From a virus: 50,358 bases of DNA. Numbering within the stretch: position 1 is the stretch's first letter; every line of letters begins with the position of its first letter. Where the stretch lies: the IMG/VR virus record IMGVR_UViG_3300030106_006546, positions 1 to 50,358 of that record; one strand, written 5' to 3'. Both the position numbers and the translations under genes were made by a program. The notes beneath the pieces were generated by a model. The model was not told where the DNA came from. It did not search any database and was given only the letters and a program-made list of their open reading frames with translations. Below are positions 1,377 through 4,667 of the stretch, in pieces.

Positions 1377-1776
1377 GACCTGCCATACCCAAGCGCACCT
1401 AATCACGCCTCAATGCAACTCGCGACAACCAACCCCACCACACCAGCCCTGCCGAGCCTTCCCCAAACCCATCTTGCCACACCTAACCGGGCCGCAAGGC
1501 ACCCGACAACGCCATGCAACACCTCGCCTGACCTGCCCTGCCTTGCCGTACCGTGACGGACCCCACCGTGCCGATTGCAACCCCGACCCGCCTGACCAGA
1601 CCTGCCCTGCCATAGCCAACCTCGCGCAACCACACGGAGACACGTCGTACCATACCTGCCTTACCGAATCCAAATCGACCTTGCCCTACCACAACAAAAC
1701 GGATCGTGAAGCACCCAACCCAAACATCCCAAAACTCACCTGACCTGCCAAGCCAAGCCTAACCCAACCTAACCGC
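1377..1776 (-). repeat. Non-coding G-rich pentanucleotide-periodic array (about 80 degenerate 5-nt units)
   Basis: Read on the minus strand, about 400 nt consist of back-to-back 5-base units of the form GGYNN (GGTTA, GGTTG, GGCTT, GGCAG and so on), starting in the stop codon of the 166-aa gene. On the plus strand in consecutive 5-base blocks, position 3 is C in 11 of 12 blocks at 1441-1500, position 2 is C in 12 of 12 at 1501-1560, and position 5 is C in 11 of 12 at 1681-1740. From 1746 the CC pair is at positions 3-4 in 6 of 6. The phase drifts slowly, so occasional units are 4 nt. Two or three bases per unit are variable. It lies within an apparent minus operon and carries no credible gene. 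Confidence 0.8.
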
Positions 1777-3241: not shown

Positions 3242-3470
3242 AGCAGCATTGAAAAAGCGGTTTTACAATCGTGTGCGTCGCACTTGTCTCAAGCACAACA
3301 TCGATATTGTGTACGATGGTGTGCCAAAGGCGGTATATGGCGTGGAGCTGGTGAAGGATGGTGTCGTGATGTTTGCCGATCGCACAAACGACAACATGCC
3401 GCTCGACATCAACTGGCAACGACTGCATGAAGAGATGACCGACTACGGTTACAAAGGTGGTGTGAAATGA
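3234..3470 (+). CDS. Small hypothetical protein (78 aa)
   Basis: Basic N-terminus (MDKAALKKRFYNRVRRTCLKH), then alternating strand-like segments. It overlaps both neighbours by a few bases, and a GAGGCATCAATT leader upstream gives a usable ribosome site. No domain recognised. The tight packing with the gene at 3467 suggests one early transcript. Confidence 0.65.
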   Translation: MDKAALKKRFYNRVRRTCLKHNIDIVYDGVPKAVYGVELVKDGVVMFADRTNDNMPLDINWQRLHEEMTDYGYKGGVK

Positions 3471-3877
3471 GCATTCCAGAAAAACCAGTTTGGCTATCCC
3501 AGAAATTTAAGGTCTCAAAAATGACGCGAGGCTGGCATCCGAGTCTTAGGGGGTGCTTGTTAATTCAGTGCGCCAACGAAGATCACAAGCTAGAGGTCTG
3601 GTACTCCCCCAACGGAGAAACAGCCAGCGATTATGGCTGGTTAGATGTGAGATCCGCAGTCAACCGAGAAAAACCAGTTTGGCTATCCAGCAAATTCAAG
3701 GTCTCAAATTTTACGCAAGGTTGGCAACCAGATCTTGGGGGGTGCTTGGTAAGTGAGTGCGCCAACGAGGATCACAAGCTACAAATCTGGTACTCCCCGA
3801 ACGGAGAAACAGGCAGCAGTTATGGCTGGTTAGAAATTTCTTCCGCAGTCAACGAGAAAGGCATCAAGGACGTGTGA
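3467..3877 (+). CDS. Tandemly duplicated small-domain protein (136 aa, two 63-aa repeats)
   Basis: Two consecutive copies of one module. Copy 1 starts at E5 (EKPVWLSQKFKVS), copy 2 at E68 (EKPVWLSSKFKVS). Each continues with GW-P-L-GC, CANEDHKL, WYSPNGET, YGWL and SAVN. By my count 45 of 63 positions match. The DNA periods are 3479-3667 and 3668-3856. The strand-rich pattern with conserved Trp, Cys and Gly suggests a small beta domain, perhaps a binding module. It lies directly before the serine recombinase, 1 nt apart. I do not recognise the family. Confidence 0.75.
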   Translation: MSIPEKPVWLSQKFKVSKMTRGWHPSLRGCLLIQCANEDHKLEVWYSPNGETASDYGWLDVRSAVNREKPVWLSSKFKVSNFTQGWQPDLGGCLVSECANEDHKLQIWYSPNGETGSSYGWLEISSAVNEKGIKDV

Positions 3878-3878
3878 A

Positions 3879-4667
3879 ATGAGTGGACCGTATAAGCAAA
3901 TCAACAACATCTACGGTTACATTCGCGTGTCCACGGATGAGCAGGTCAAGTCGGGCATTTCGCTCGAAACCCAGATGCAACAGATCAGCGAGTTTGTGCG
4001 CGAGAAGTATAACCGTAAGGTCACGCAGTTTTTTGCTGATGAAGGCATCAGTGGTACTCACGCGGTTTTAGATCGTCCCGCAAGCCGTGAAATGACCGAC
4101 GTCATTGATGAGCACGATGTCGTTATTTGCACTAGGCTTGATCGATTAAGCCGATCAAGTTCTGATTTATTATCGCTTATTCCGCAACTCCAAGAGATCG
4201 GAATCACTTTGTTTTTCTGCGAGCAGTTTGGTGAAATGCCGATCGTTTACCCCGATGCTGTCAAAACAAAGGGTTTAGATGCGAAGTTTGACATGAATCA
4301 CATGGCCAATCAGATCATGTTGATGGTACTGTCTGCCGTCGCCGAGATTGAACATGCGACGATTAAAGACCGTTTTTCAGCGGGTAAACTGGACTGGGCG
4401 TCACGCGGGTATGCGATCGGTGGATCACCACCCTACGGATTCCGCCATGTAGAGGTCAAGACGGGAAGCAAAACCCGCAAGCTTTTGGAAGAAGTGCCTG
4501 AAGAGCAAGCTGTCTTGAAAACCATCTACCGTCTGCACAAGCGTGGCTTGGGTCCACGCAAGATAGCAACGCAGGTCAATAGCTTGCACGACATCCCACC
4601 GCTGACACATTCGAAAGTTCAGCGCATTCTCAACCGCAAGTTTCAAGGTTTGCCTAAAGCCGCGTAG
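3879..4667 (+). CDS. Serine recombinase (resolvase/invertase family, 262 aa)
   Basis: The N-terminal resolvase domain has YGYIRVSTDEQ with the nucleophile at S18 and R16. The conserved ADEGISGT follows, then CTRLDRLSRSSSDLL around residues 83-97, which holds the Arg residues that act on the scissile phosphate. The long E-type helix and a helix-turn-helix-like C-terminal part (GYAIGGSPPYGFR, then HKRGLGPRKIATQVN) resemble the post-catalytic region of Hin/Tn3-like or short Recombinase-type enzymes. At 262 residues it is longer than simple invertases and far shorter than large serine integrases. It could resolve multimers, invert a segment or integrate the phage; no attachment site or invertible segment was identified. 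Confidence 0.9.
   Translation: MSGPYKQINNIYGYIRVSTDEQVKSGISLETQMQQISEFVREKYNRKVTQFFADEGISGTHAVLDRPASREMTDVIDEHDVVICTRLDRLSRSSSDLLSLIPQLQEIGITLFFCEQFGEMPIVYPDAVKTKGLDAKFDMNHMANQIMLMVLSAVAEIEHATIKDRFSAGKLDWASRGYAIGGSPPYGFRHVEVKTGSKTRKLLEEVPEEQAVLKTIYRLHKRGLGPRKIATQVNSLHDIPPLTHSKVQRILNRKFQGLPKAA

Follow-up and report, generated by a model that had tools for sequence, protein, structure and literature searches.

A probable VIPR locus with GGCA-separated GGYNN guide blocks in an aquatic caudovirus

The window analysed here, the whole 50,358-nucleotide stretch of IMG/VR record IMGVR_UViG_3300030106_006546, very probably carries a phage-borne VIPR (Viral Interference Programmable Repeat) locus, in which an array of GGYNN units encodes guide RNAs. 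VIPR is a discovery only months old, reported in a 2026 preprint (April/June; PMC13142463). According to its main text, the system comprises a RAMP protein (Vipr), an accessory gene (vap) and vrRNAs of alternating GGY and NN motifs, whose NN pairs bind double-stranded DNA with one target base skipped, repressing transcription mostly of other phages. The minimal locus is described as vipr with one vap, flanked by an RNA region, each vrRNA spanning 9–16 GGY/NN units. The model system is that of Escherichia phage SUSP1, for which vrRNA expression, Vipr binding, DNA recognition and transcriptional repression were shown; the published tests mainly concern type II, whose accessory gene in SUSP1 is vap1 and whose vrRNAs there each bear a conserved structured 3' tail. 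The first-pass annotation of this DNA had pointed to no described system of this kind, a view that the preprint overturns, and our literature search returned no further paper describing a Cas7-like protein together with a GGY/NN array.

The array occupies positions 1379–1774 on the minus strand. On the reverse strand of 1377–1776 the identity at lag 5 is 0.489 as against 0.311 in dinucleotide shuffles (z 7.95), a value reached by none of 2000 shuffles, and it is accompanied by harmonics at lags of 10, 15, 20, 25 and 30 with minima in between. The strict five-base rhythm proposed in the first-pass annotation is therefore borne out by the very autocorrelation that it had suggested as a check. 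A GGYNN phase model comprising 81 units scored with a z of 11.7: position 1 is G in 71/81 units, position 2 is G in 58/81, which means that several units depart from GGY, position 3 is T or C in 78/81, and positions 4 and 5 are nearly uniform. This is the top lag-5 region across the 50-kb window and the only array that our array detector found within it. Its borders also lie where they had been placed earlier, the 5' one inside the stop codon of the 166-aa FEWDD gene (1769–2269) and the 3' one about 35 nt ahead of the ATG at 1342. Folding of the array RNA yielded no more structure than did shuffled sequences (z 0.41), and no Rfam family was matched in the window. The GGYNN pattern is real and functional-looking.

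Two minus-strand genes precede the array, which lies directly downstream of them, and their reading frames overlap by 4 nt. The first, vipr (2266–2877), codes for a 203-aa, single-RRM RAMP (Cas7-like) protein with a PHROG match to phrog_4652, and the second, vap (vipr-accessory; 1769–2269), for a 166-aa protein with the FEWDD motif, belonging to phrog_15946. The members of these two families are hypothetical proteins of mycobacteriophages, Gordonia phages and Felixounaviruses, and PHROGs assigns no function to either. When an AlphaFold model of Vipr, built on 31 relatives (pLDDT 85.8), was compared with the PDB using Foldseek, the best 50 matches were all Cas7-family RAMP subunits, with e-values from 3.5e-6, and included Csm3, Cmr4, type VII Cas7 and Cas7-11. 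A conserved glycine-rich segment at the C-terminus, GxGxGEWRPEKGGxxGRF, would be the glycine-rich loop of the RAMP fold. The window Vipr is homologous to that of SUSP1 (hhalign probability 98.7, E 2.5e-16; BLASTP 23% identity, E 7e-14). The vap model (pLDDT 93.5) had no PDB match at E<=1e-3, displaying only weak similarity to PadR/LmrR and DnaD, and the protein has no detectable homology to SUSP1 vap1 (hhalign probability 0.1); its own homologues are found in nearly all vipr loci that we fetched. Thus, of what had been called a Cas7-like gene pair, the 203-aa protein is indeed Cas7-like, whereas the FEWDD protein bears no relation to it and is accessory: this second gene is a vap, neither a second Cas7 nor a counterpart of vap1. 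A PADLOC search with the two proteins gave no match, and NCBIfam gave none above the cut-off, the nearest being a sub-threshold Cas6 match of Vipr (E 0.17).

The locus accordingly presents a single-RRM RAMP homologue with a G-loop, an array whose 81 units fall into blocks of 10–17 where the published vrRNAs have 9–16, and a minimal vipr and vap unit flanked by an RNA region. With the type II VIPRs of SUSP1 and a Pseudomonas fulva prophage, as far as the preprint's main text presents them (PMC13142463), it shares a homologous Vipr RAMP, GGY/NN repeats, a vipr-vap operon, arrays in the flanking intergenic DNA and a phage-borne setting; the one-base skip is supported here in relatives from the same clade. 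Our array detector, run on SUSP1, placed a single tract upstream of vipr-vap and others downstream, in agreement with the layout published from small-RNA sequencing (PMC13142463). However, the window vap is non-homologous, Vipr is only about 23% identical, and where type II guides are described as ending in a structured 3' tail, those of the window abut through a GGCA slip. The locus is hence not of the characterised type II, since its vap is unrelated to vap1 and the structured 3' tails are missing. The main text of the preprint has no GGCA separator; it does name, for some VIPR types, "staggered arrays with overlapping vrRNAs" (PMC13142463, fig. S18), which probably have the same architecture as the window, with blocks in staggered phase, and the GGCA slip may belong to that arrangement. 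Class 1 CRISPR-Cas systems with Cas7/Csm3 and a crRNA array are likewise comparable in having the RAMP fold, a multi-guide array and a regular separator between variable blocks. They differ in that the window separator is only 4 nt long in place of repeats of 20+ nt, the window guide is interrupted every five bases, and no Cas1/Cas2 or other cas genes adjoin the array, as judged from the PADLOC and NCBIfam scan of the two proteins.

Segmentation of the array at its one-base slips yields, after a leader, five blocks that number 17, 10, 13, 17 and 13 units, all on the minus strand. The leader, M0 (1746–1774), reads GGTTG GGTTA GGCTT GGCTT followed by GGCA, overlaps the vap stop codon, and is kept in L002–L008 among the related loci. 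It is followed by guide M1 (1661–1745; 17 units), with the NN series CA GA TT AT TG TG GC AC CC TT GT AG AA CG TG TC AA, and, after a GGCA at 1657–1660, by M2 (1607–1656; 10 units; AT AC GT TC GT TG GA TG AT AG). A second GGCA (1603–1606) leads to M3 (1538–1602; 13 units; CT CA GG GG TG TC AC GG CC AC AC AA AG), and a third (1534–1537) to M4 (1449–1533; 17 units; CA GA GT AT GT CG GC GC CC TA GT AA GG TG AA TC AG). The separator between M4 and M5 is the variant GGCT (1445–1448), and M5 itself (1380–1444; 13 units; GT GG TG GT GA GC GA GT TA GC TG AT AG) has GGCAGG at its end. No obvious 3' tail is seen on these guides, the blocks abutting with only the tetranucleotide between them. The "slow phase drift" described in the first-pass annotation is consequently a true shift of phase, though not a slow one, being made up of discrete one-base slips at 4-nt GGCA (once GGCT) units.

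The same grammar recurs in relatives. We fetched 105 vipr loci (54 viral, 48 from bacterial or archaeal genomes and 3 from actinobacteriophages), and the array detector found an array on the vipr strand in 100 of them, so that the search for arrays beside this Cas7-like family, proposed from the window alone, returned co-oriented arrays almost throughout. When the detector was applied at the same threshold to 93 loci retrieved independently of vipr, it accepted only two: L183, with a score of 30, and Phage DSL-LC04, with a score of 89. The array of the latter adjoins a divergent vipr (hhalign 96.4%). This DSL-LC04 stretch (L218, OR003939.1, 21989–23364, minus strand) constitutes an unannotated divergent VIPR: its GGYNN array lies upstream of WJZ48083.1, the Vipr homologue, annotated as a helix-turn-helix regulator, and is followed after that gene by a 147-aa lysine-rich protein, possibly a vap of a different family. 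The arrays contain 618 phase slips, of which 557 fall short by exactly one base; the short unit is GGCA in 480/557, and in the arrays that we inspected the first unit often follows a GGCA and the last is often followed by GGCA or GGCAGG. This preponderance, together with the placement at array ends, suggests that GGCA acts as punctuation between guides, which in the relatives measure 7–21 units, mostly 8–13.

Guides are also gained and lost as wholes. L002, whose Vipr is 100% identical to that of the window, precisely lacks M3; L003–L005 (Vipr 99%) lack M2 and have altered versions of M1, M3, M4 and M5; and L010–L012 (Vipr 73% identical) carry a relative of M3. A guide common to L009 and L014 is identical at 22/24 NN bases with most of its GGY triplets different, which is to be taken as an illustration and not as a rate, because NN identity was the criterion for choosing such pairs; that choice also biases the substitutions counted at each position of the unit, and these were not used as a rate. 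We consider it quite possible, if short of probable, that the tail-less, GGCA-punctuated array is a distinct VIPR architecture, namely a CRISPR-like polycistronic array whose guide ends are marked by a tetranucleotide and its one-base slip, and whose guides, those against rivals' vipr included, phages can acquire, shed and swap as wholes.

The reading of the NN pairs was examined by scanning both strands of the fetched loci (1.64 Mb, arrays masked) with 537 distinct decoded guides. With one base skipped (NN-x-NN) there were 57 best matches at E<1 and 12 at E<0.1, as opposed to 26–37 and 0–6 with skips of 0, 2 or 3, and 34 and 5 with order-shuffled guides. A guide from a Sphingomonas soli prophage (L065, 6057–6096), reading ED[IM]VRVG[IM], agrees at 16/16 bases with vipr in 20 other loci, where the base left out is the wobble base of the codon, and at 13/16 with its own vipr, in which the arginine is synonymously recoded to AGG. 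Two Microbacterium prophage guides, whose NN string is mostly common to both, read antisense as RAAHELGHL[IM][IM] and [IM]VAHELGHLV[IM]. In 298 Microbacterium genomes their shared core (AHELGHL) was found at 61 places with at most one mismatch, 20 of them exact, versus 35 for the reversed pattern. Those matches that were translated are XRE-ImmA/IrrE proteins, in two of which Pfam PF06114 was confirmed (E 3e-23 and 6e-24). The full guides match at most 20/22 bases, and the core matches name a gene family rather than a single victim, as HELGH is a common motif. ImmA-type genes are part of the lysogeny control of mobile elements. On this account the matches agree with the VIPR targets given in the main text of the preprint (PMC13142463). 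The NN composition of the guides follows codon positions 1 and 2, with a log-odds r of 0.91 versus 0.75 and 0.57 in the other frames (387/537 guides). For the clade as a whole the one-base skip did no better than controls in four related phages and 21 relatives' contigs, and one Sphingomonadaceae guide had no match in 401 Sphingomonadaceae genomes. The one-base-skip code is supported in the window's clade on the guides of relatives.

These observations bear on what else the array might be. One continuous RNA scaffold, that is, an uncut array coated over its full length by Vipr and serving as a structural or decoy RNA, is a very unlikely reading; it accords with the array being continuous and devoid of hairpins or tails, but not with blocks that are bounded by one-base slips at a constant GGCA, that relatives acquire or lack in their entirety, and that singly match genes at the one-base skip. 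Still more improbable is a DNA element of non-guide nature, be it a G-quadruplex, a recombination or packaging site, or low-complexity DNA generated by slippage. The strong G asymmetry between strands, the period of five and the non-coding site between genes would all suit such an element, yet distant phages have the NN bases in common even where the surrounding repeat frame has changed, the composition of these bases fits codon positions 1 and 2, slippage would have copied NN as well, and in 100 loci the array runs in the direction of vipr. A protein-coding stretch (a plus-strand 132-aa frame at 1345–1743, or minus-strand frames in the array) is scarcely credible, as the open frames of 69–132 aa that cross the region are due to C-rich DNA being free of stop codons, the period is 5 and not 3, the one-base slips would shift any frame, and whole blocks come and go in L002–L022 with no conserved reading frame. 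The guide-array reading is thus retained, and of the earlier proposal of an RNA scaffold or guide coated by the Cas7-like protein, it is the guide read in five-base steps that is upheld, by the Cas7/RAMP fold, the 100/105 arrays and the homology to SUSP1, and the single continuous scaffold that gives way to a set of separate guides.

On this guide-array reading, the vipr (2266–2877) and vap (1769–2269) operon would be transcribed leftward together with the array (1379–1774), whose RNA would be cut or otherwise separated at GGCA into five guides of 10–17 units. Vipr, as a single-RRM Cas7-type RAMP, would coat each guide through GGY, plausibly with one subunit per five bases, leaving the NN pairs free to pair with double-stranded DNA as NN-x-NN-x, the skipped target base usually corresponding to a codon wobble position. 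The resulting complex would repress genes of competing phages or prophages. Expression of the vrRNAs, their binding by Vipr, DNA recognition and repression are here carried over from the SUSP1 system by homology, whereas cutting at GGCA and the part played by vap, like the window's targets and the effect on their regulation, are what we infer for this locus.

The window phage is an aquatic caudovirus with a terminase closest to those of phage 023Pt_psg01, Pelagibacter phages and DSL-LC04. Its guides M1–M5 had no target in viral_contigs, in four terminase-related phages or in 21 relatives' contigs. The viral_contigs search used exact one-base-skip patterns with 20 fixed bases for M1, M3 and M4 and 18 for M5; when the patterns for M1, M4 and M5 were shortened to their conserved cores, the matches obtained there stayed at chance level on extension. 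In the related phages and contigs nothing rose above controls, the strong skip-3 matches being rejected as targets because they are the arrays themselves. Judging by the terminase kinship, the rivals of this phage may simply be unsequenced. M5 reads VGWVDADVYAWIS, which by eye resembles an AlpA-type regulator, a lead to which Pfam lent no support. Elsewhere in the window, a 136-aa protein (3467–3877) is built of two 189-nt tandem repeats with an 84% match and is adjoined by a serine recombinase (3879–4667).

To what is known of VIPR these loci would add the GGCA punctuation, the turnover of whole guides, and a vipr-against-vipr guide with self-avoidance. The GGCA-slip grammar is common to a widespread branch that includes mycobacteriophages, Gordonia phages, aquatic phages and prophages of Rhizobiales, sphingomonads, actinobacteria and Clostridia. 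In this branch it is possible to read from a guide the protein motif that its target encodes. The Sphingomonas soli guide directed at 20 rival vipr genes, with its own gene recoded, renders phage-phage VIPR conflict directly testable, and the GGCA mark makes a concrete prediction for the processing and exchange of guides.

Several of the fetched loci have further features. In L021 (3613–6271) the VIPR array region is very large and its segments enclose two copies of vap, apparently through duplication. L055 (3398–5313) has two long arrays on either side of a non-array stretch, with partly duplicated guides and GGCAGTC in place of GGCAGGC after the separator. In Mycobacterium phage Saal (L105, 2601–4052), and likewise in near-identical mycobacteriophages, the array and vipr-vap are placed between a repressor region and the excisionase gene, and this stretch is annotated throughout as hypothetical.
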